From Gammaproteobacteria bacterium (lineage in GTDB: Bacteria; Pseudomonadota; Gammaproteobacteria; JAABTG01): a stretch of DNA of 64,000 bases. The notes beneath the pieces are model-generated. The model made no database searches and had not been told where the DNA came from. It was given only the letters and a program-made list of their open reading frames with translations. Each line of letters begins with the position of its first letter. Position 1 is the first letter of the stretch. Where the stretch lies: the NCBI GenBank assembly GCA_034522055.1, contig JAXHLS010000002.1:2046001-2110000 (forward strand), in the 5' to 3' direction. Positions 4,281 through 21,218 of this stretch are shown one piece after another. The translations under genes were made by a program, and so were the position numbers.

Positions 4281-7084
4281 CAGCGGTAGTCCTCGTCGCC
4301 GGCGGACGCCTCGTGGCTGGCGCTGTGCATGAGCCCGAGATGGATGAGGATGAGCAGGGTGGCGCCCACCACCACCAGGTAGACCCCGAAATCGAAGGCC
4401 ATGGCCGAGGCCACTTCGAAGTCGCCCACCAGGGGCCAGTGCAGATGGGTGAAGGCCGAGGTCAGGAAGGGGTGTCCGAACAGCCAGCTGGCCAGCCCCG
4501 TGAGGGTGGCCACCAGCAGCCCCAGGGCCAGCACCGGGTGCATGTTGGCGGGCAGGCGGGACTGGGTCCAGGCCACGCCGTTGGCCAGGTATTGCATGAT
4601 GAGGGCCACGGCGGTGATGAGGCCGGCGATGAAGCCGCCCCCCGGCTGGTTGTGCCCGCGCAGGAAGATGAAGGCGGATACCAGCAGGGCGAGGGGCAGC
4701 AACAGCCGGGTGAGGGAGGCCATCACCGGCGGGTGCATGTCCGGGCTCCAGGGGCGGCCGTCGTCGTCGTGGGTCGGCCCCGCGAGGTGAAGCCCCTCGA
4801 GCATGGCGAAGATCCCGAGGGCGGCCAGGGCCAGCACGGTGATCTCCCCCAGGGTATCGTAGCCGCGGAAGTCCACCAGGATGACGTTTACTACGTTGCT
4901 GCCACCCCCCCCGGGCAGGCTGTTGGCGAGGAAGAAGTCGGCGATGCTGTCGTAGGGCCGGGTCAGCACCGCCCAGGCGAGGGCGGCCACGCCGCCGCCG
5001 GCCACCACGGACAGCACCACGTCGCGGGCGCGATGGCCGGGCCGTGAATCCGGCTGTTGTCGCCGCGGCAGGAAATACAACGCCAGTAGCAGCAGCACGA
5101 TGGTGACCACCTCCACGGACAGCTGGGTCAGGGCCAGGTCCGGGGCCGAGAACTTGACGAACACCAGGGATACCACCAGCCCCACCACGCCGATGAGGAT
5201 GAGGGAGACCAGGCGTTGGCGATGCATGATCACGGTGGCCACGGCCGCCGCCGCCAGGCCGCCGGCGGCCAGCAGACTGATGCCGTCCACGGGCAGCAGG
5301 TCGCGACTGCCCGTCAGGGGGCCGCCGCCGGCGACGAAGCCACTGATGCCGAGCACGGCGGCGAAGGCCACGAATATGGCCACCAGGCGCTGCAGTGAAC
5401 CGGTGTCGAGGGCCCGGGTGACCGCCCCCGCCAACTTCAGGATGCCGCCGATGGTGTGGTCGAACAGGACCTTGGCTTGCAAACGATGCTCGAAGCGGTC
5501 ATGGAGCTCGAACAGGGGTTGGCGTTTCATGTAAAGCAGCCCGCCTCCCACCAGGGCCACCACGCTCATGGCCAGGGCGATGTTGAATCCGTGCCAGATG
5601 GCGAGGTCGAAGTTGGGCACCGGCTGGTTGAGCATGCCGGCGGAGGCGATGGTCAACAGCGGTTCCACGGTCAAGGCAGGCAGGATCCCCACCAGCAGGC
5701 ACAGCGCCACCAGCATCTCCACCGGCACCTTCATCCAGCGCGGCGGCTCGTGGGGCAACTTGGGCAGGTCCACGGGCTCGCCGTTGAAGAACACGTCATG
5801 GATGAAGCGGAAGGAGTAGGCCACCGCGAACACCCCGGCCACCGTCACCGCCGCCGGCAGCAGCCAGCCCAGGCGCAGGTGGGTGGACGCGCTCACCGCC
5901 TCGGCGAAAAACATCTCCTTGGACAGAAACCCGTTGAGCAGGGGTACGCCGGCCATGGCCGCGGCCGCCACCATGGCCAGCATGCCGGTGTGGGGCATGT
6001 ATTTCCACAGGCCGTTGATCCGGCGCATGTCGCGGCTGCCGGTCTCGTGGTCGATGATGCCCGCGGCCATGAACAGGGACGCCTTGAAAATGGCGTGGTT
6101 GATGATATGGAACACCCCGGCCACCGCCGCCAGGGGGGTGCCGATGCCGAACAGCAGAGTGATGAGCCCCAGGTGGCTGATGGTGGAATAGGCCAGCAGG
6201 CCCTTCAGGTCATGCTTGAAGAGGGCGAAAACGGCGCCCACCAGGAAGGTGGCGAGCCCCGCGCTGCCCACCAGGGCCGACCACTCGGGGGTGCCGGAAA
6301 GGGCGGGAAAGAGGCGCGCCAGCAGGAACACCCCGGCCTTGACCATGGTGGCGGAATGCAGGTAGGCCGACACCGGGGTGGGGGCGGACATGGCATTGGG
6401 CAGCCAGAAATGAAACGGGAACTGGGCCGACTTGGTGAAGGCGCCCAGCAGGATCAGCACCAGGGTCGGCAGGTACAGGGGGTGGGCGCGGATGACGTCG
6501 CCGGATTGCAGGATCACCGACAGCTCGTAGCTGCCCACGATATGCCCCAGCAGCACGAAGCCGCCCAGCATGGCCAGCCCGCCGGCCCCGGTGATGGCCA
6601 GGGCCATGCGCGCGCCCTGGCGGGCATCGGCACGCTCCTGCCAGTAGCTGATGAGCAGGAACGAGGTGAGGCTGGTGAGTTCCCAGAACACCAGCAACTG
6701 GATGATGTTCTCCGACAGCACGATGCCGAGCATCGCGCCCATGAACAGCAGCAGGTAGGCATAGAACCGGCCCATGCAGTCCCCGGCCGCCAGGTAATAG
6801 CGGGCATAGAGGATCACCAGCAGGCCGATGCCCAGGATAAGCAGGGCGAACAGCAGCCCCAGGCCGTCGAGCCGGAAGGCGAGGGTGAGGCCGGCCCGGG
6901 GCATCCACGCCGACTCGTGGATCAGGGTCTCGCCCTCGAAGACCGCCGGCATGAGGGTGATGAGCTGGACCACCGCAGCCAGGGTCACCAGCCCTGCGGC
7001 CCATGCCGACTGGATGCGCCCGAAGCGCGCCACCCAGGCCGCGACGGGTGCGCCCACGAAGACGGTAAGGATCAAGAGGAGCAC
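4280..7084 (-). CDS. mrpA: Mrp Na+/H+ antiporter, fused subunits A and B
   Basis: Large subunit of 934 aa and first gene of the operon. Residues about 60-430 are the ND5-like proton channel ([46 protein letters not shown]). A C-terminal region of about 140 residues is an MrpB domain ([19 protein letters not shown]). No separate mrpB exists, so A and B are fused, as in proteobacterial PhaA'. The start is GTG at 7084, with an AGGAG about 12 nt upstream. Substrate (Na+ or K+) cannot be told from sequence. Confidence 0.95.
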
Positions 7085-7142: not shown

Positions 7143-7265
7143 CTGAAAGTCGCGAAGCCCGCTCTCCCCCTCTCCCTCTGGGAGAGGGATGGGGTGAGGG
7201 AACGGGCATGGCGATACGCCCTCCTCTTTCATCATTTCGGGCGGCGCGTATCGCCATGAGAGTTA
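7143..7265 (+). repeat. Dispersed ~125-bp two-hairpin repeat, copy A
   Basis: This stretch is nearly identical to 54094-54218. It holds two hairpins. The first is CCCTCTCCC/GGGAGAGGG with a 3-nt loop. The second is a perfect 13-bp stem CATGGCGATACGC (7207-7219) pairing with 7246-7258 around a 26-nt loop. It sits in the space between selD and mrpA. It resembles the REP/MITE-like sequence common between genes in many Proteobacteria, which yields spurious LSQRERG-type reading frames. Confidence 0.85.
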
Positions 7266-7331
7266 TCTTGCCTTGCCGGCGGGAGTAAGACCAGCCGTCA
7301 TGGCGCGGGTGGGGCATGGTGTTTTCACGGA

Positions 7332-9638
7332 TCAGGCCGCTTCCCGGCGCCTGGCCGGCGCCGCATCCAGGGCGGTGTCCACGCGGATGGGCTCGGCGGC
7401 CTCCCCGGTGGCCTCGATATGGCCGATGACGGCGGCCTCGGGGTAGCCCAGGGTCCGCAGCTCGGCGACGCAATCATCCGCCTGGCCGCCGGGCACCCCC
7501 GCCAGCAGTCCACCCGCCGTCTGGGGGTCGAAGAGCAGGGGGAACAGGGGGTGGCGTGCCGCCGCCTCCAAGTCCCGGATGGCCCGCCGCAGGCGCAGGT
7601 TCTGGGGCTGCAGGGAGGACAGGATCCCCGCCGCCACCGTCTCGGCGGCGCCGTCCAGCACGGGCACGGCCGCCAGTTGCAGCCGGGCATCTACGCCGGA
7701 GGCGCGGGTCATCTCCACCAGGTGCCCCAGCAGACCGAAGCCGGTGACGTCGGTGCAGGCGCTGGTGCCGTGGCGTCGCAGGCAGTCGGCGGCGGCGTGG
7801 TTGGTGAGGAGCATGGTGTCGATGGCGCCGTGGATCCAGCGCCCCTTGGCCTGCTGGCGCATGTCGGCGGCGAACAGGGTGCCGGTGCCGATGGGCTTGG
7901 TGAGCACCAGGGCGTCTCCCGCTCGCAGCCCCCCCTTGCGCCACATCACGGCGGGGTCGGCGAGGCCGTTCACCGTGAGCCCGAAGGCCAGCTCCGCGCC
8001 CTCGCTGGAATGCCCCCCGGCGAGCACCGCGCCGCAGGAGCCCAGCACCTTCAGGGCCCCCTGCATTATGTCGTGGAGGGTCTGCTCGACGATGCGCTCC
8101 CGGCCGTAGGGCACGGTGGCGATGGCCAGGGCCGACTGGGGCTCGGCGCCCATGGCGAAGAGGTCCCCCAGGGCATGGTTGGCGGCGATCTGGCCGAACA
8201 GGTAGGGGTCGTCGATGAAGGCCCGGAAGTAGTCGACGCTCTGCACCATCACCTTGCCCGGCGGCACCTCCAGCACCGCCGCGTCGTCGGGGCTGTCGAG
8301 GCCCACGATGACGTCGCCGCGGCTGCCGGCGGCGAGGCGTTGCATGACCCGGGTGAGCACCGTGCTGCCCACCTTGGCCCCACAGCCGCCGCAGCGCATG
8401 GCGATGGTGGAGAGTTCGCGGATGGCATCCGCATCGGCGATGCCGTGGGCCAGGTCCGGCCCGCCGTCGTCCTCGTCCATGGCGGGCAGCTCGTTGAAGC
8501 GGGCCATGAAGCGGCGATCGATCCAGTCCTTGGCGCGCCACAGCCAGGCACCCTCCAGGGACCAGCGGCCGCGGGAGGCCACGGCATACTTGTCGCCCGT
8601 GCTGATGAGGCCGAGAAAATGGCGCTGGGGCCGGTAGCGGCGCAGGGGGCGGCCGGTGGCGGCGCGGCTCAGGTTGTCCGCCAGCACCGGCCCCTGGCGC
8701 ACCGCGAACACCCCTGACTTGGGCCGCGGGTCCGGCAGGGCGGCCACGTCGCCGACGGCGAACACGCCGGGATGGGACACCGACTGGAGGTGCGCGTCCA
8801 CGCGGATGAAGCCTTCGTCGTCCACCGCCAGCCCGGCCGCGCCGGGCCACGGGGCGGCGGCGGCGGTGGTGACCCACAGCACGTCGTCCGCCGCCACCGG
8901 CTGCCGGCCTGCCGCCCGTACCTGCCCGGGGACGACCTCCGTCACCTGGTGATCCGTGTACACCTCGATGCCCCGTTCCTTCAGCACCCGCTCGAAGCGG
9001 GAGCGCACCCCCGCGTTGTGGGAGGGCAGGATGTCGGGGCCCTGGGTCAGCAGGCTGAAATGCAGGCGCTCGGGCCGGTCGCCGCGCGCCGCCAGCAGGT
9101 GGCGCAGGCGGTACTGGGCGGCGAGGGCCAGTTCCACGCCGCCGGCGCCGCCGCCCACCAGCACGATACGGTAGTCGCCGTGGCTCGCCAGCACGCGGTC
9201 CACCATGGCCTGCCAGCGCGTGAGGAAACTGTCGATGGGTTTCACGGGGGTGGCATGTTCGGCAGCGCCGGGTACGTCGTGGACCCGCGGTCGCGAGCCG
9301 GTGTTGATGGACAGCAGGTCGTAGGGCACCGGCGGGCGGTTGCCCACCCGCACCGTGCGTTCTTCCAGGTCCAGGCCCTCCACCTCGCCGTGGAACAGGC
9401 GTGCCCCGGCGAACTGGGCCAGGGGCCGCAGATCGATGTGGCAGTCGTCATAGCCGTAGTGACCGGCCACGAAGCCCGGCAGCATGCCCGAATAGGGGGT
9501 GTGGACGTCCCGCGCCACCAGGGTGATGCGCAGGCCCGGCACCGGCCTCATGCCGAAGCGCCGCAGCACCGCGACGTGGGAATGGCCGCCGCCCACCAGC
9601 ACCAGGTCTTTTACGACGGGGGAGTTGTCTTGCTTCAT
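7332..9638 (-). CDS. selD: NAD(P)H dehydrogenase-like FAD domain fused to selenide, water dikinase SelD
   Basis: A 768-aa two-domain protein. Residues 1-370 are a pyridine-nucleotide disulfide oxidoreductase/NDH-2-like domain (LVGGGHSHVAVL near residue 14; a second dinucleotide motif VLVGGGAGGVELAL near 159; FAVGDVAAL near 293). Residues from about 405 are SelD, which makes selenophosphate from selenide and ATP; the catalytic pair is Cys419 and Lys422 in CGGCGAK, followed by DSPDDAAV and AGGHSSEGAE. The catalytic position is Cys, not selenocysteine. It lies 61 bp downstream of senA in the same direction, so it probably supplies selenophosphate for selenoneine and possibly other seleno-products. 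ATG 9638 places the GGGHSHV motif at the N-terminus as expected. Confidence 0.93.
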   Translation of the reverse strand: MKQDNSPVVKDLVLVGGGHSHVAVLRRFGMRPVPGLRITLVARDVHTPYSGMLPGFVAGHYGYDDCHIDLRPLAQFAGARLFHGEVEGLDLEERTVRVGNRPPVPYDLLSINTGSRPRVHDVPGAAEHATPVKPIDSFLTRWQAMVDRVLASHGDYRIVLVGGGAGGVELALAAQYRLRHLLAARGDRPERLHFSLLTQGPDILPSHNAGVRSRFERVLKERGIEVYTDHQVTEVVPGQVRAAGRQPVAADDVLWVTTAAAAPWPGAAGLAVDDEGFIRVDAHLQSVSHPGVFAVGDVAALPDPRPKSGVFAVRQGPVLADNLSRAATGRPLRRYRPQRHFLGLISTGDKYAVASRGRWSLEGAWLWRAKDWIDRRFMARFNELPAMDEDDGGPDLAHGIADADAIRELSTIAMRCGGCGAKVGSTVLTRVMQRLAAGSRGDVIVGLDSPDDAAVLEVPPGKVMVQSVDYFRAFIDDPYLFGQIAANHALGDLFAMGAEPQSALAIATVPYGRERIVEQTLHDIMQGALKVLGSCGAVLAGGHSSEGAELAFGLTVNGLADPAVMWRKGGLRAGDALVLTKPIGTGTLFAADMRQQAKGRWIHGAIDTMLLTNHAAADCLRRHGTSACTDVTGFGLLGHLVEMTRASGVDARLQLAAVPVLDGAAETVAAGILSSLQPQNLRLRRAIRDLEAAARHPLFPLLFDPQTAGGLLAGVPGGQADDCVAELRTLGYPEAAVIGHIEATGEAAEPIRVDTALDAAPARRREAA

Positions 9639-9699
9639 CGGGGTCGTCCGTTTGTCGTCTGATGCCGGTTGGGGGTACGCTGAATTCCGTGCCAGGGGT

Positions 9700-11007
9700 T
9701 CACAGGGCGCAGGTACGAAAGCCCGCGAACACGTCGTTGCGGTCGGGGCCATAGTAGTTGCGCCAGGTGTTGCGGATGAGCCGCGCCCGGCTGGCCCAGG
9801 CGCCGCCCCTGAGCAGCCGGGTGGTGCCGAACAGGGGCTGGGAATAGTCCTGGTACATGTCCGGCTCGAAGCCGGGGTAGGGCTCGAATACCGTGTCGGT
9901 CCACTCCCAGACGTTGCCCAGCATCTGGCGGCAACCAAAGGCGCTGTCCCCCGCCGCCAGGGCCCCCACGTCGATGGTGCCCAGGGCCCCGCCGTCGAGG
10001 TTGGCGCGGCCGGCGTCGGGGGGGGCATCGCCCCAGGGGTAGCGGCGCTTCAGGGAGGCCAGGGTGGTGCCGTCGGCGGACGGTTGGGCGGCGGCGGCCA
10101 CCTCCCATTCCAGCTCGGTGGGCAGGCGCCGCCCGGCCCAGCGGCAATAGGCCCGGGCCTCGTACCAGCTCACGTGGATCAGCGCGGCGTCCACGGCCAG
10201 GGGTCGCCATGTCTGGAAGTGCCGCTGCTCCCAGTCGGCGGCCCTGCGGCGCCAGTAGCGGGGTTGGTGCAGGCCACCGGCGCTGCGCCAGGTCCAGCCC
10301 TCGTCGTCCCAGTAGTCGGGCGTGTCGTAACCGCCGGCATCCACGAAGGCGGCATACTCGCCGTTGGACACGGCGGCGCGGGCGATACGAAAGGGCGCCA
10401 CCTTGCGGGGGTGGGCCCATTTCTCGTTGTCGAAGCAGAACCCGTCCTGCGGTCGAGCGCCCAGCAGGAACTCCCCGCCGGGTATGGCGGCATCGCCCGC
10501 CAGGGGGCCCGCCCGCCAGGCGGGATCGGGGGGCGTGGCGATGGCGGGGGGCGGGTATTCCAGGGTCTGGCGGGTATAGGTGAAGGCCTCGGTATGCATG
10601 TCCTCGTGGAATACCGCGTACTGAGCCAGGTAGTCGCGGTGCGGGTCCGGGCCCGACGCCAGGTGGTCCTCGACGCGCTCCAGCACGCCCGCCATGTAGG
10701 CCAGGGTGTCGGCCATGGCCGGCAGGGGCAGGTCCCAGCGGTCGTCGTGGGCGATGGTGATGGAGTCGTAGAGGGCATCCACGTCCGGGCGCCCCGGGGC
10801 TTCGCCGTAGTGCTGGCGCAACACCCAGTATTCGTAGAAGAAGGCGGCGTGGGCGACCTCCCAGCGCAGCGGGTTGACGGTGGGCAGGCGCGGGCCCATG
10901 AGCTGGTGTTCGTCCAGCCCGGCGATGAGGATCAGGGTGCGCCGGCGGGCGTCCCGCATCTGCTCGACGAGGGCTTGTGGGGCGGTGGGGACGGCGGTCT
11001 GGGTCAT
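9700..11007 (-). CDS. senA: EgtB-family sulfoxide/selenoneine synthase, probable SenA
   Basis: A 435-aa non-heme iron enzyme with an N-terminal DinB-like domain and a C-terminal formylglycine-generating-enzyme (FGE)-like fold. The iron ligands are visible: His53 in WEVAHAAFF, then His134 and His138 in HEDMHTE (the HX3HXE motif of EgtB). EgtB joins hercynine to a sulfur donor; SenA does the same with a selenosugar to give selenoneine. The family assignment is from sequence. The SenA choice over EgtB rests on the neighbours: selD 61 bp downstream and a SenB-type glycosyltransferase gene divergent 153 bp away. If the cluster were for ergothioneine, EgtC/EgtD-type neighbours would be expected; none are present. 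Confidence 0.85.
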   Translation of the reverse strand: MTQTAVPTAPQALVEQMRDARRRTLILIAGLDEHQLMGPRLPTVNPLRWEVAHAAFFYEYWVLRQHYGEAPGRPDVDALYDSITIAHDDRWDLPLPAMADTLAYMAGVLERVEDHLASGPDPHRDYLAQYAVFHEDMHTEAFTYTRQTLEYPPPAIATPPDPAWRAGPLAGDAAIPGGEFLLGARPQDGFCFDNEKWAHPRKVAPFRIARAAVSNGEYAAFVDAGGYDTPDYWDDEGWTWRSAGGLHQPRYWRRRAADWEQRHFQTWRPLAVDAALIHVSWYEARAYCRWAGRRLPTELEWEVAAAAQPSADGTTLASLKRRYPWGDAPPDAGRANLDGGALGTIDVGALAAGDSAFGCRQMLGNVWEWTDTVFEPYPGFEPDMYQDYSQPLFGTTRLLRGGAWASRARLIRNTWRNYYGPDRNDVFAGFRTCAL

Positions 11008-11160
11008 GGCTTATGGGTCATGGTTTTGGCGTGCTCAGGGGTTTGCGGGCCGGGAGTTGTACCGGCGGGTGGCAGCGGACACACTGGTGAATGATGGACA
11101 CGGCAAGCAGAACGGCAGACGCACACGGGATGGATGGCGGATGAGGGCCAAGAATACCGG
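11008..11160. promoter_or_regulatory. Divergent promoter region between senA and senB
   Basis: The 153 bp between two divergent starts must hold promoters for both sen transcripts. It contains an inverted repeat GCCGG...CCGGC around 11050-11067. I see no convincing -10/-35 pair or known operator, so no site is called. Confidence 0.5.
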
Positions 11161-12114
11161 ATGAACATTCGCCTTATAACCCCGGCACCACCAAGGTCTA
11201 GGGCCGGCAACCGCGCCACTGCCGCCCGCTGGGCGACCATCCTGCGGGGGTTGGGTCATCGTGTGAAGGTGTCCCTGGACTACGGCGGCGAGCCCGCCGA
11301 CATGATGGTGGCCCTCCATGCCTGGCGCAGCGCCGCGGCCATCGCGGCCTTCGCCGGCCGCTACCCGGAGCGGCCCCTGGTGGTCTCCCTCACGGGTACC
11401 GATGCCTACCGCTTCATCCACAGCCATCCCCGGGAGACCCTGCGCTCCATCGAGCTGGCCCACCGCCTGGTGGGGCTCCACGACCTCATCGCCGACACCG
11501 TGCCGCCGGAGCATCGCGCCAAGGTGCGGGTGATCCACCAGTCGGCGCGGCCCCTGGCGGCCCGGGACCCCGCGAGACGCCATTTCCGGGTGGTGGTGGC
11601 GGGGCACCTGCGGGAGGAGAAGGACCCCCTGCGCCCGGCCATGGCGGTGCGGTGCCTGCCGCGGGAGAGCCGCATACGGGTCGACCATTACGGCAAGGCC
11701 CATACTCCGGAGTGGGGCGAGGCGGCGCGTGCCGAGATGGCGGACAATCCCCGCTACCGCTGGCACGGGGAGATCCCCCACCACCGGTTGCGCCAGGTGT
11801 TCCGGCGCGCCCATCTGATGGTGCTGCCGTCGCGCATGGAAGGCGGGGCGAACGTGATCTCCGAGGCGGTAGTGGCGGGCCTGCCGGTGGTGGCATCCCG
11901 CATCGCCGGCTCGGTGGGGCTGCTGGGGGAGGATTACCTCGGCTACTATCCCGTGGAAGACGCCGATGCCCTGGGCGCGGTGTTGTTGCGGGCGGAGGCG
12001 GAGCCGGCCTTCTACCGGGACCTGGAGCGGCAGTGCGCCGCCCGCCGCGGGCTCTTCACTCCCGAGGCCGAGCGGGCGGGGTGGGTGAGGCTGCTGGCGG
12101 AGCTGGAGGCCTAG
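11161..12114 (+). CDS. senB: Glycosyltransferase-family selenosugar synthase, probable SenB
   Basis: A 317-aa GT4-fold protein of the family formerly known as a putative glycosyltransferase next to selD-type genes (TIGR04348, from memory). N-terminal MNIRLITPAPPRSRAGNRATA and the C-terminal nucleotide-sugar segment SRMEGGANVISEAVVAGLPVVAS are diagnostic. SenB is known to form a selenosugar (C-Se bond) from selenophosphate and a UDP-sugar. It is divergent from senA-selD and convergent with the LysR gene. ATG at 11161 directly precedes the conserved N-terminal motif; an in-frame upstream codon at 11134 would add nine unconserved residues. Confidence 0.85.
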   Translation: MNIRLITPAPPRSRAGNRATAARWATILRGLGHRVKVSLDYGGEPADMMVALHAWRSAAAIAAFAGRYPERPLVVSLTGTDAYRFIHSHPRETLRSIELAHRLVGLHDLIADTVPPEHRAKVRVIHQSARPLAARDPARRHFRVVVAGHLREEKDPLRPAMAVRCLPRESRIRVDHYGKAHTPEWGEAARAEMADNPRYRWHGEIPHHRLRQVFRRAHLMVLPSRMEGGANVISEAVVAGLPVVASRIAGSVGLLGEDYLGYYPVEDADALGAVLLRAEAEPAFYRDLERQCAARRGLFTPEAERAGWVRLLAELEA

Positions 12115-12159
12115 TCCGTCCTCCGAGGCCACCAATTCGTGGTGACCGGTGGCGAGGGA

Positions 12160-12999
12160 TCAGGTCTCGAAGCTGCGGGCCACCGCCAGCAGCAGGTCCT
12201 CGTCGGCGCGCCCCGAGCGGAAGACACAGAAGACCTGGCGTTCGATGACGGGTGCGTCGGCCACGCGGTGGAGGCGGCCGGCGCCCAGGGCCGGTTCGGC
12301 CATGGGCGCGGCCAGGAAGGCGCTGCCGCCGCGCTCCATGAGCAAATCCACGGCCAGCAGCCCGAAGCCCGCCCGGAGGCGGGGGGCGGGGCGGTCCCCC
12401 AGCAGCCGCGAGTGGCTGAGGGAGAAGGCGGTGCCCCAGTCCACGTAGACGTAGCCTTCGCCCAGGGCGTCGTCCAGGGTGGCGGCGGGAGCCGTGGATA
12501 CCAGGATCAGGGCGACGTCGCCGAGCTGGCGGATGGCGAGGTCCTGGATGGGCGGGGCATCGAACAGGAAGGCCATGTCCAGGGTGCCGGTGGCCACCTG
12601 TTCGGCCAGGGCGGCCTGGCTCTGGGTCTCCACCCGCAGGGCGATGCGCGGCTCGCCGGCCAGCAGCCGGGCCGTGTACCCGGCACCCACCATGGACCAC
12701 AGGTCCAGTTGGAATCCTATGGCCAGCACCTGCTCCACCTCGGGTTCCAGCAACAACTCCTGGCGCGCCCGGTTCCATTCGTTGACGATGGCCTCGGCGT
12801 GGCGTTTGAGGCGGCTGCCGGAGGCCGTGAGGCGGAGATCGTTGCGCTTGCGCACGAAGAGTTCGGTGCCGAGGGCCTCTTCCAGCAGCTTGATGCGGGC
12901 GCTCACCGCCGACTGGGTGACGTGAAGGCGCTCCGCCGCCTGGCCGAAATGGCGCGTGCGGGAGACCTCCAGGAAGGTCTTGAGCAGGGAGATGTCCAT
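12160..12999 (-). CDS. LysR-family transcriptional regulator
   Basis: A 279-aa regulator. Residues 1-60 form the winged helix-turn-helix (LLKTFLEVSRTRHFGQAAERL, then HVTQSAVSARIKLLEEALG). The rest is a divergent substrate-binding domain. The N-terminus resembles HdfR-type LysR proteins. It is convergent with senB (45 bp between stops), so control of the sen genes is possible but not shown. No ligand can be inferred. Confidence 0.92.
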   Translation of the reverse strand: MDISLLKTFLEVSRTRHFGQAAERLHVTQSAVSARIKLLEEALGTELFVRKRNDLRLTASGSRLKRHAEAIVNEWNRARQELLLEPEVEQVLAIGFQLDLWSMVGAGYTARLLAGEPRIALRVETQSQAALAEQVATGTLDMAFLFDAPPIQDLAIRQLGDVALILVSTAPAATLDDALGEGYVYVDWGTAFSLSHSRLLGDRPAPRLRAGFGLLAVDLLMERGGSAFLAAPMAEPALGAGRLHRVADAPVIERQVFCVFRSGRADEDLLLAVARSFET

Positions 13000-13177
13000 G
13001 GACCTTCAGGGCCCATGGTCGATGAGGGTTGCCATGACCCTATTCTCTGGCAAACCGTCCCGGGGTGGTATAGCCGCAGCCCATCCGGCGCCAGCGGCCG
13101 TGGACGGGCACGACGGGATGCATTACAGCCATGTTCCGGGGTGGCGGATACCCCCGCGGCGCGGTGGATTCAGGCCC

Positions 13178-13351
13178 TCAATCGAACTCCTCGAAGTCCG
13201 GATCCTCCAGGAGTTCCCGCAGGCGCTTGAGGTCCTGGCGGCGCTCGATGCGCCGCCGCACCTCCAGCCACCGCGCCCGTTCCTTCACCTCGGGAATGGG
13301 GCCGAATCCCGGCTCGCCGTCCCCCATCGCTTGTTCCGACTCTTCCGACAT
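13178..13351 (-). CDS. Small acidic/charged conserved-type protein
   Basis: A 57-aa soluble, highly charged protein ending in LEDPDFEEFD. The core ARWLEVRRRIERRQDLKRL is probably a single amphipathic helix. It resembles the short PA3496-like proteins of gammaproteobacteria, but I am not certain. The start is taken as ATG 13351; two in-frame GTG codons lie just upstream (to 13363), and an AGAGG sits about 11 nt before the ATG. It lies upstream of the LysR gene on the same strand. Function unknown. Confidence 0.6.
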   Translation of the reverse strand: MSEESEQAMGDGEPGFGPIPEVKERARWLEVRRRIERRQDLKRLRELLEDPDFEEFD

Positions 13352-13460
13352 CACCTGACCCACCTCTGAAGCCTTCTGAATGGGCTAGATTTAGCTCAGG
13401 CGGGCTTGGCGTTAAAACGAAAGATCCTTATCGCGACGAGCAAAGACGTTCATCGTCGCG

Positions 13461-13476
13461 CCCCCCGTCCGGGGGG
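13461..13476 (-). terminator. CCCCCC/GGGGGG hairpin after the membrane-protein relic
   Basis: A 6-bp G/C-only stem with loop GTCC lies directly behind the TGA of the remnant frame (13477-13479, minus). There is no T-tract, so it may be only the relic of a terminator. Confidence 0.3.
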
Positions 13477-13590
13477 TCAGGGTGCGGCCCACCACTGCTC
13501 CCAGGCCAGATGGCCGGCCAGGGCCACCACCACCATTAGGAATACGGGACGGATGAAGAGGGCGCCGGAGATGGAGTTCAAAGGGCGCGG
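13477..13590 (-). pseudogene. C-terminal relic of a TSUP/TauE-SafE-like membrane protein
   Basis: The minus strand encodes a short open tail, NSISGALFIRPVFLMVVVA followed by LAGHLAWEQWWAAP and a TGA stop. The pattern of a short basic/polar lead, then IRP and a final hydrophobic helix, resembles the last helix of TSUP (YfcA-type) permeases. The frame has a stop about 45 nt further upstream and no start, so only a relic remains. The assignment rests on about 30 residues and is tentative. Confidence 0.3.
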
Positions 13591-13616
13591 CGGGGGCAGG
13601 TTAGGGGGGATGCTAT

Positions 13617-13657
13617 TGGGGAATAGTGAATAGTGAATAGTGAATATAGTGAATGGG
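13617..13657 (+). repeat. GTGAATA heptamer array, site 1
   Basis: About five imperfect copies of a 7-bp unit (GAATAGT). It lies just beyond the stop of the DUF2782 gene. The same unit recurs at 27654, 52332, 56383 and, inverted, 56567. Confidence 0.85.
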
Positions 13658-13670
13658 AGAGGGCCGGGGG

Positions 13671-14024
13671 CTACCAGCGGAACAGGACCCAGCCGGGGAT
13701 GCGGAAGCCGGGGTCGAGTTCGTGGCGGCGGGTCTCCAGGTTGCCGTCGCCGTCGGCGTCCACCAGGTAATAGGTGGGACCGATATCGGGTTTCACCCGA
13801 ATCATGTAGAGCTGGCCGTTGACCCGGTATTCCTCGATGGTCTGGGTCTCGCGCCGGATGATGGTGACCTCGGGCTCCAGGGCCTCGCCGCTTTGCACCT
13901 TGGGCGGCGGCGGCGGGGCCTCGGGGAAGCGTTCGGGCGGCTGCTCCTCCTGGGCGGCGGCCGTAACGGTCGCCAGGGCAGTGGCGAGCAGGATGCAGGA
14001 CGAGGCGAGATGTTTGATGGGCAT
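13671..14024 (-). CDS. DUF2782 family exported protein
   Basis: A 117-aa protein with a signal peptide (KHLASSCILLATALATVTAAAQ), a proline-rich linker (EAPPPPPKVQ) and a compact domain containing TIEEYRVNGQLYMIRVKPDIGP. This matches the DUF2782 family, whose genes often neighbour polA in gammaproteobacteria. ATG 14024 is chosen because it starts the signal peptide; the longer in-frame extension is not protein-like. It follows the LOG-family gene by 61 bp and is probably co-transcribed. Periplasmic; function unknown. Confidence 0.9.
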   Translation of the reverse strand: MPIKHLASSCILLATALATVTAAAQEEQPPERFPEAPPPPPKVQSGEALEPEVTIIRRETQTIEEYRVNGQLYMIRVKPDIGPTYYLVDADGDGNLETRRHELDPGFRIPGWVLFRW

Positions 14025-14085
14025 GGGCTTTTTATGAATTTGTCGGGGCACTGCTGGAGACGCCGGGATGTGGGGCATGGGGGCC

Positions 14086-14823
14086 CTAGAGCTGCAGCAG
14101 GATCTCCTGCTCCTCCACGGAGGGTTCGAAACCCCGGGTCTCGTAATGATCGAAGATAGCATCCACCACTCGGGCCGGTTTGTCCACGATCTGAAACAGC
14201 TCCAGGTCCTCCGGGCTGATGGTAGCCTGGGTCACCAGGCTGTGGCGGAACCATTCCACCAGGCCACGCCAGAACGGCTCCCCCACGAGAATGATGGGGA
14301 TGCGCGGGGTCTTGCCCGTCTGCACCAGGGTGAGGATTTCCGCCAGCTCGTCCAGGGTGCCGAAGCCCCCCGGCAGCACCACGTAGGCCGAGGCATACTT
14401 CACGAACATCACCTTGCGGGAAAAGAAATGGCGGAAGCTCAGGGACACGTCCTGGTAGGGATTGGCCGTCTGCTCATGGGGCAGGCTGATGTTGAGCCCG
14501 ATGCTGGGGGACCGTCCGGCATGGGCCCCCTTGTTGGCCGCCTCCATGATCCCCGGCCCGCCGCCGCTCACCACGGCGAAGCCGGCGTCCGAGAGTTGGC
14601 GGGCGATGTCCTCTGCCAGCTCGTAGTAGCCATCGGCGTCGCCGGGACTGATGCGGGCGGAGCCGAATATACTCACGGAGGGCCGCAGTTCCGACAGCCG
14701 CTCGAAGCCTTCCACGAACTCGGCCATGATCTGGAATACCTTCCAGGAATCGCGCCCGGCCGGCCGCACGGAGTTGGGGGGGCCGGCGAAGGCGGAGGCG
14801 ATGTCTCTGGATTTATGGCTCAT
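14086..14823 (-). CDS. LOG family protein (TIGR00730), nucleotide 5'-monophosphate ribohydrolase-like
   Basis: A 245-aa Rossmann-fold protein with the LOG signature PGGFGTLDE and the upstream SGGGPGIMEAANKGA loop, where the conserved Arg/Glu catalytic pair normally acts. LOG proteins hydrolyse cytokinin riboside monophosphates or AMP-like nucleotides; PpnN-type nucleotide hydrolysis is also possible. Its start is 57 bp from the divergent polA start, so the two share a promoter region. Confidence 0.9.
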   Translation of the reverse strand: MSHKSRDIASAFAGPPNSVRPAGRDSWKVFQIMAEFVEGFERLSELRPSVSIFGSARISPGDADGYYELAEDIARQLSDAGFAVVSGGGPGIMEAANKGAHAGRSPSIGLNISLPHEQTANPYQDVSLSFRHFFSRKVMFVKYASAYVVLPGGFGTLDELAEILTLVQTGKTPRIPIILVGEPFWRGLVEWFRHSLVTQATISPEDLELFQIVDKPARVVDAIFDHYETRGFEPSVEEQEILLQL

Positions 14824-19301: not shown

Positions 19302-21218
19302 ATGGCCATCAAGCTAGAGCTGTTCGGCAACCAGATAGACGGCGCCCGGGATTACCAGGAAGACGCCTTCATGACCACCCGCCTCGGCGAGGGCGAGGAA
19401 TCCAATGCCACGGTGTTGGTGATCATGGCCGACGGCATGGGCGGCCACGCCGCCGGCAACGTGGCCAGCAACATGGTGACCACCACCTTCAACCGTACCT
19501 TCGCCGGCCTCTACCCCGCGGACGACGTGCCAGGGGCCCTGAAACAGGCCCTGCTGAAGGCCAACGATTCCATCCGCCAGTCGGTGCGCGAGACGCCGGG
19601 CCTGAAGGGCATGGGCTGCACCATGGTCAGTGTCTTCGTCCAGGGCACGAAGTTGTGGTGGGTGAGCGTCGGCGATTCCCATCTCTACCTGCTGCGGGAG
19701 CGCAGTCTCAACAAGCTGAACGCCGACCACAGCTACGGCGGCTACCTGCAGCGCATGCGCGAGCAGGGTATGGCCATCGAGCCCGACACCAACCTGTCGC
19801 CCAACATGCTCATGAGCGCCATGATCGGTGACGAGATCGCCGAGATCGACCTGTCCAGCGAGTCCTTGGATTTGCAGCCGGGTGACCGCCTGCTGATCTG
19901 CAGCGACGGCCTGGATACCCTTGGCCAGGGCTCCGTCATCCAGTACTCGTCCTGGGCCGAAAACCCGCGGGACTGCGTCAATGCCCTGCTGGAGGCGGTG
20001 GAATCGGCGGGCCAAGCCAAGCAGGACAACACCACGGTGGTTTGCGTGGATGTGGTGGAGGAGGCGGATGTCCCCGCCAAGAAGGCGGAAACGGTGGCCA
20101 AGGGACGACTGTTGCCCGAAGGTGTGCCTGAGCCGGCGAACGTTCCAGAACTCGAACCGGACCCCGAGCTGACCCTGGTGCCAGCGCCGGGCGGGCCGCC
20201 CCCACCCCGAGAAGTGGCTTCGGCACCGGAGGAGGAAGAGGACGAGAGTGGCCGCCGCCGGGGCCTCGTGGTAGGTATTGTCCTGGTGCTGCTGTTGGCG
20301 GTGGCCGGTGGGGCCGGATGGTACTTTTTCCAGGGCCAGGAGCAGCAGCCCGCACCGACGGTGGCGGAGGCACCAACCGTCGACGAGCCCATCACCGAGC
20401 CCGCACCACCGGAGATGGTTCCCGAGCCCGAGGTTGCCGTCGATGAAGAAGAACCTGAGCCGCCCCCCGCGGAAGAGGCCGGCCCGGTGCCGGGCGACGT
20501 GTTTCGGGATGCCCTCGAGGTCGGGGGGCAGGGACCCGAGATGGTCGTCATCCCCCGTGGCTCCTTTACCATGGGGGGGCGGCTGCCCCTCAAACCGGAG
20601 GAGCAGCCCCGTTACGAAGTTACGGTGCCGGCCTTCGCCGTGAGCCGTTATGAGGTGACCTTCGCCGAGTACGACCGTTTCGCCCGGGCGACGGGCCGGC
20701 GGTTGCCGCCGGACGATGGCCTCGATCGCGAGACTCGTCCAGTCACCGGCGTGAGTTGGGACGATGCCTACGCCTACACCAACTGGTTGTCCAAGCAGAC
20801 CGGCGAACGTTATCGCCTGCCGAGCGAGGCCGAGTGGGAATACATGGCCCGTGCCGGCAGCAGCCGGGAGTACTGGTGGGGCCGCGATATCGGTCGTGAG
20901 AACGCCCACTGCTTCGACTGTGAGAGTGGTCTCCACCCCCGCCAGCCGGCGAAGGTGGGTTTCTTCGAAGCCAGCCCGTTCGGCGTCTACGATACGGCAG
21001 GCAATGTCGCGGAATGGGTCCGTGACTGCTGGCATCCCGACTATCGCGGGGCCCCGACCGACGGCAGCGTATGGGAGGGTGGTGATTGTACTCAGCGGGT
21101 GGTGCGGGGCGGCTCCTACAGCAATGCGTCCTCCGCGCTGCGCTCTGCCGCGCGGGACAAGCTCCCTGGCAATAAGGGCTACGACAACGTGGGCATCCGT
21201 CTCGCCCGGGGGCTCTGA
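19302..21218 (+). CDS. PP2C-type protein phosphatase fused through a membrane helix to an FGE-sulfatase (SUMF1)-like domain
   Basis: A 638-aa fusion. Residues 1-250 are a PP2C phosphatase with the full metal set ([35 protein letters not shown]), so it is likely active. An acidic/proline-rich linker leads to one membrane helix at about 320-345, then another Pro/Glu-rich linker. Residues about 414-637 are an FGE/SUMF1-like domain ([47 protein letters not shown]). The cysteine pair that FGE uses after GGS is absent, so formylglycine formation is unlikely. The phosphatase would be cytoplasmic and the SUMF1-like domain periplasmic. The substrate is unknown; neighbours do not help. Confidence 0.92.

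Follow-up and report, generated by a model that had tools for sequence, protein, structure and literature searches.

A predicted selenoneine biosynthesis locus with an Ndh-SelD fusion in a gammaproteobacterial genome

Three gene products needed to place selenium on hercynine appear to be encoded side by side in a gammaproteobacterial genome, raising the question of whether such a neighborhood makes selenoneine, ovoselenol or ergothioneine, or serves another selenium trait. The neighborhood lies in a 64,000-nucleotide segment (the window) of contig JAXHLS010000002.1 from a Gammaproteobacteria bacterium (assembly GCA_034522055.1), where open reading frame (ORF) and profile analysis of the window resolves positions 7332-12114 into three intact genes, senA, senC and senB. 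These encode an EgtB-like iron enzyme, a fusion of an NADH dehydrogenase-like (Ndh) oxidoreductase with the selenophosphate synthetase SelD, and a glycosyltransferase. Judging from sequence, the window very probably carries a selenoneine (sen) biosynthesis locus. The gene set is a true and complete sen set, belonging to a kind that is already known.

The gene set and its predicted reactions

A sequence-only reading of this DNA had described an EgtB-family gene, a selD and a senB next to one another, with senA-selD divergent from senB and the SelD part within a fusion. All three genes are intact at that place, senA and senC lie on the minus strand and senB on the plus strand, and TIGR03169 and TIGR00476 both match within a single protein. 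Each product also passes the curated cut-off of its family, which agrees with the description of the genes as the known sen set (SenA, SenB, SenC) and makes selenoneine their predicted product. The family E-values are 1e-150 for SenA, 1e-131 for SenB, while the halves of the fusion reach 1e-148 and 1e-90, and the Pfam domains are consistent with the NCBIfam family calls.

The sen cluster of Variovorax paradoxus DSM 30034 was reportedly described by Kayrouz et al. in 2022. Like the window, it encodes SenA, SenB and a selenophosphate synthetase together, according to three later accounts (PMC9814287; PMC10702425; PMC10891094). In V. paradoxus, SenC produces selenophosphate, SenB converts it to a selenosugar, and SenA couples the selenosugar to hercynine, after which loss of the sugar and reduction give selenoneine (PMC9814287); a second paper gives the same order for the V. 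paradoxus enzymes (PMC10702425). The window is set apart by a senB that diverges from senA-senC and by a SenC that is an Ndh-SelD fusion, the gene order and SenC of V. paradoxus being outside the comparison.

In the window's organism, the NADH-dependent oxidoreductase half of SenC would probably reduce a selenium compound to selenide, which the SelD half would convert with ATP to selenophosphate. SenB would then join selenophosphate to a UDP-sugar with removal of phosphate, and SenA would use iron to combine the resulting selenosugar with hercynine, supplied by an EgtD encoded on another contig, into a selenoxide; loss of the sugar and reduction would yield selenoneine. We infer from sequence both that all steps of this pathway operate in the organism and that the oxidoreductase half has a role in supplying selenide.

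SenB scores 436.7 bits against TIGR04348 (selenosugar synthase SenB; cut-off 300) and shares 142 identical residues out of 322 with V. paradoxus SenB. It keeps N20, T23, R155, K158, E231 and E239 of the V. paradoxus enzyme (N26, T29, K163, E236 and E244 correspond to N20, T23, K158, E231 and E239 in the numbering of the 326-residue ORF). The two clusters share their SenB catalytic residues as well as the expectation of hercynine from EgtD. The earlier assignment to the SenB family of glycosyltransferases is thereby upheld. These six are among the residues named as important in a study of V. paradoxus SenB, which also records that alanine mutants of L209 and T214 are more active (PMC10891094); the window protein departs from V. 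paradoxus SenB at both of these positions.

The N-terminal half of SenC scores 495.2 bits against TIGR03169 (Nterm_to_SelD; cut-off 310), a family located N-terminal to SelD. The protein also reaches 302.4 bits on TIGR00476 (selD; cut-off 125), and its 477.2 bits on TIGR04369 (fusion_not_SelD) fall below the cut-off of 700. Its SelD active site reads CGGCGAK (C416, C419, K422), and these three residues are invariant across 50 fusions, the window's included. C419 and K422 align with C17 and K20 of Escherichia coli SelD, which we take to be catalytic, and the claim of a SelD in the cluster is sustained on both profile and residues. Among 80 SenB loci, the 80 best among 470 confirmed relatives and so biased towards the window's kin, 49 have a fused SelD close to senB. 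The oxidoreductase part occurs alone in 8 (6 cut by a contig end), SelD alone in 7 (3 cut) and neither in 16.

Fusions of this type are long known. The oxidoreductase (COG1252) was predicted in 2008 to generate the substrate of SelD (PMC2432076), Ndh-SelD fusions made up about 40% of the Cys-SelDs of ocean data and the CxxC of their SelD half was described, also in 2008 (PMC2398784), and the Ndh-SelD type was the commonest SelD fusion (PMC4561486). The window's senC resembles the described COG1252-SelD fusions (PMC2398784; PMC2432076) in domain order and in the CxxC of its SelD half (C416GGC419). It differs from them in lying beside senA and senB. No account of Ndh-SelD fusions within sen clusters was found in the literature searched, which did not include the primary selenoneine paper, and novelty is not claimed.

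Hercynine and selenophosphate in the genome

EgtD, the source of hercynine, had been reported missing from the window and was to be sought elsewhere in the genome. No egtD lies within the 64 kb, and the search located one intact ORF of 334 amino acids (aa) on another contig (G000:C1:22652-23560). Its product scores 331.8 bits on TIGR03438 (cut-off 290.9) and 262 bits against a solved histidine N-alpha-methyltransferase. The egtD region is present twice, at G000:C1:14000-32000 (L176), on a 33-kb contig, and at G000:C2:3027000-3045000 (L177). The two align collinearly for about 13 kb, in two pieces that are 95 and 89% identical and each contain some 100 gap openings. The copy on C2 is broken by stops and frame changes, and could be a damaged paralogue or the result of a poor or unpolished assembly.

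Within the order (five genomes), SenA and EgtD exceed their cut-offs in the same three genomes (G000, G001, G004), and neither does in G002 or G003. In a sample of 229 genomes of the class, SenA is above cut-off in 14 and EgtD in 76, and all 14 SenA genomes have EgtD (hypergeometric 8e-8, uncorrected for kinship). Seven of the 14 hold a second match in the EgtB range (260-382 bits) and one (G221) an OvsA-type match; the other six, the window's included, have no second match among the matches listed (down to about 93 bits). A search of the window's genome for a further egtB or senA gave none. This genome combines EgtD and a selenium route without a recognisable EgtB.

The senC fusion is the only SelD above cut-off in this genome, whose completeness is rated at 98.16%. 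SelA and YqeB have no match in the genome, SelU has nothing beyond one 24-residue, 21-bit match, and no SelB exceeds the cut-off of 242, the two matches of 183 bits resembling EF-Tu. Since there is one SelD and none of SelA, SelU, SelB or YqeB is above cut-off, selenoneine is the only SelD-dependent product that can be named, and SelD seems to be orphaned, with no named client but SenB.

A broader proposal is offered tentatively, as slightly less probable than its contrary. The organism could be one that makes selenoneine only, with SelD-dependent selenium use confined to one small molecule, EgtD without EgtB making hercynine for selenium alone, and the Ndh-SelD fusion acting as a two-step SenC that makes and traps selenide. 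If this were true and general, many of the Ndh-SelD fusions of aquatic organisms would act in selenoneine synthesis and not in the making of selenoproteins. The genome offers a clean case, its sole SelD being an Ndh-SelD fusion next to senA and senB, and none of selA, selU, selB or yqeB exceeding its cut-off. Because EgtB and other selenophosphate users above cut-off are both lacking, it is a tidy test case, in which the predicted role of the fused oxidoreductase could be tested directly without a selenoprotein background.

SenA among its relatives

On the NCBIfam models, the window SenA scores 501.9 bits against NF041186 (SenA; cut-off 420) and 90.9 bits against the TIGR04373 signature (cut-off 71). 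In a motif table of this protein and 66 locus proteins longer than 380 aa, its H53, H134 and H138 line up with the histidines of EgtB that we take to bind iron, in keeping with the earlier description of an EgtB-family enzyme with intact iron ligands. The pocket letters DYSQ...RNYY are of the SenA/EgtB type (YS...RN), with DYS and RN common to V. paradoxus SenA. At 435 aa, the window protein aligns with V. paradoxus SenA in two stretches that leave query residues 310-363 unaligned. The pocket Asn of WRN is kept in the window SenA, V. paradoxus SenA and EgtB, and is replaced by Thr (WRT) in 13 of the 66 SenA proteins (L005, L006, L008, L011, L012, L015, L018, L019, L021, L024, L025, L048, L064).

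A related enzyme, the ovoselenol synthase OvsA (Protein Data Bank 8u41, 8ux5), was reportedly described by Kayrouz et al. in 2024, as cited in PMC13188914. The window SenA belongs to the same enzyme family, and the selenium donor is probably of the same kind.

Several observations weigh against a selenoneine locus. Among solved structures, the closest match of the window SenA is OvsA (8ux5, 8u41; 337 bits), ahead of an EgtB (268 bits) and V. paradoxus SenA (221 bits). The 28-row group of the careful tree introduced below, which holds both the window SenA and V. paradoxus SenA, also takes in OvsA, with support of just 85/74. The co-occurrence of SenA with EgtD is not specific proof, since egtD is unlinked to the cluster and EgtD serves EgtB in many genomes.

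As the pairwise structure scores speak against a simple SenA assignment, two trees were built from rows hand-picked among the SenB loci and the loci of the genome search: a quick one of 68 rows and a careful one of 42. In the careful tree, all 34 SenA and OvsA rows are joined and split from eight EgtB rows (branch support 99/99). The window SenA falls within an 11-row group of gammaproteobacterial SenA (100/99), and three OvsA rows form a separate branch (100/100). V. paradoxus SenA and OvsA each end long branches among the 34 rows, in an order that is unsettled. In the quick tree, V. paradoxus SenA belongs to a 38-row group that excludes OvsA (support 87). The window protein thus lies inside the SenA group in two trees, as well as above the SenA cut-off, which answers the tree check proposed for it.

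Were the EgtB-like protein an OvsA that places selenium on histidine itself, fed by SenB and SenC, the cluster would make ovoselenol. The structure scores and the position of the OvsA rows inside the wider SenA group favor this reading, which is nonetheless very improbable. In contrast to the window SenA, 8u41, the L062 protein and the plus-strand L175 protein carry the pocket letters FMST...RQAY, marks read off these three sequences rather than from a publication. The two natural OvsA-type proteins also fall just below the SenA cut-off (414.7 bits for L062 and 410.8 for L175) and reach 51-52 bits on TIGR04373, below both thresholds that the window protein exceeds; the second, SenA-type protein of L175 scores 479.3 bits on the SenA model. 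To these differences and the separate branches is added the presence of EgtD, which ovoselenol synthesis should presumably not need.

An ordinary EgtB in an organism making ergothioneine, with senB and selD as neighbors of a different role, is a shade less probable still. The window SenA does share with EgtB the fold, the iron ligands, the hercynine-type pocket Asn and a TIGR03440 match of 335.6 bits, and the genome has EgtD. However, that match stays below 360, the cut-off for EgtB, and the single EgtB scored for comparison (L129) behaves in reverse, with 601 bits on the EgtB model and 372.2 on the SenA model. The branch supported at 99/99 separates the protein from the EgtB rows, and SenB or SelD appears in the flanks of 13 of 13 SenA-type loci (L116-L128) compared with 0 of 16 EgtB-type loci (L129-L144), for which only short flanks were covered.

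Equally improbable is a fused SelD serving another selenium trait (selenocysteine, selenouridine or the selenium molybdenum cofactor), with senA and senB adjacent by chance or with both served: Ndh-SelD fusions do occur in genomes with selenocysteine machinery, according to one survey (PMC4561486), but this nearly complete genome, unlike those of the described fusions, has no recognised selenocysteine, selenouridine or YqeB trait, within a search that did not include tRNA-Sec. Profile, pocket letters, neighbors and EgtD, taken together, support the assignment of the window's EgtB-like protein as a SenA.

Locus layout and related loci

Table 1. Features of the sen locus and its borders in the window.
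Feature	Position	Strand	Description
senA	9700-11007	-	Iron-dependent selenoneine synthase, DinB and FGE-sulfatase domains, 435 aa (NCBIfam, Pfam, tree)
senC	7332-9638	-	FAD/NADH-oxidoreductase (Ndh-like) domain fused to SelD, 768 aa
senB	11161-12114	+	Selenosugar synthase, GT-B Se-glycosyltransferase, 317 aa, divergent from senA
senA-senB divergent intergenic stretch	11008-11160	.	153 base pairs; presumably holds both promoters
LysR-family regulator adjoining senB	12160-12999	-	PF00126/PF03466; probably outside the sen unit

The ORF listing takes the first possible start codon, and senC and senB were consequently listed too long. The fusion ORF as listed spans 7332-10028 (minus strand). As senA overlaps the initial 130 codons of this ORF in a different frame and the oxidoreductase family match starts only at residue 141, the likely start of senC is the ATG at 9638, which places senC 61 bases downstream of senA. 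The senB ORF is listed from 11134 (326 aa) with a family match from residue 12, which makes the ATG at 11161 the probable start. A consensus scan found no sigma-70-like site in the senA-senB intergenic stretch, and a promoter and terminator scan of 9600-12200 detected none.

A sister locus (L003) is collinear with window positions 7262-12121 at 89% DNA identity. Window positions 12122-13463, which include the LysR gene, are missing at the same place in L003. As no LysR match above 100 bits is listed among the 80 SenB loci either, this gene is unlikely to be the regulator of the cluster. Further along the window, a plus-strand gene (19302-21218) encodes a PP2C-type phosphatase domain joined to one that is FGE-sulfatase-like (PvdO-like) and distantly related to the catalytic domain of SenA.

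The gene arrangement of the window is common to its relatives. A SenA-like protein is found in 67 of the 80 SenB loci and in none of the remaining 13, some of which are truncated by contig ends. A complete PhnD/C/E-like ATP-binding cassette (ABC) importer occurs in 13 of the 80 (L005, L006, L019, L024, L028, L032, L047, L056-L058, L066, L067, L072) and at least one part of it in 16, in some cases directly beside senA-senB. This importer likely takes up selenium for sen clusters; among the genes predicted in the window, none matches such a putative selenate importer. In five loci (L056, L057, L058, L066, L067), senB and selD lie beside the importer with no senA in the stretch examined. The L058 binding protein scores 390 bits on TIGR04553 (putative selenate ABC transporter; cut-off 250), and a PatB-like C-S lyase is present in all of these loci except L057. 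They may have senA elsewhere or make a different selenium product.

At L175 (G221:C4:66000-84000), a stand-alone SelD lies between an OvsA-type and a SenA-type protein (10966-12303 plus, 12381-13436 plus, 13480-14796 minus). There is no senB among the ORFs listed, and an egtD gene lies nearby (within 5203-6387, minus strand). Such a locus may serve the synthesis of both ovoselenol and selenoneine.

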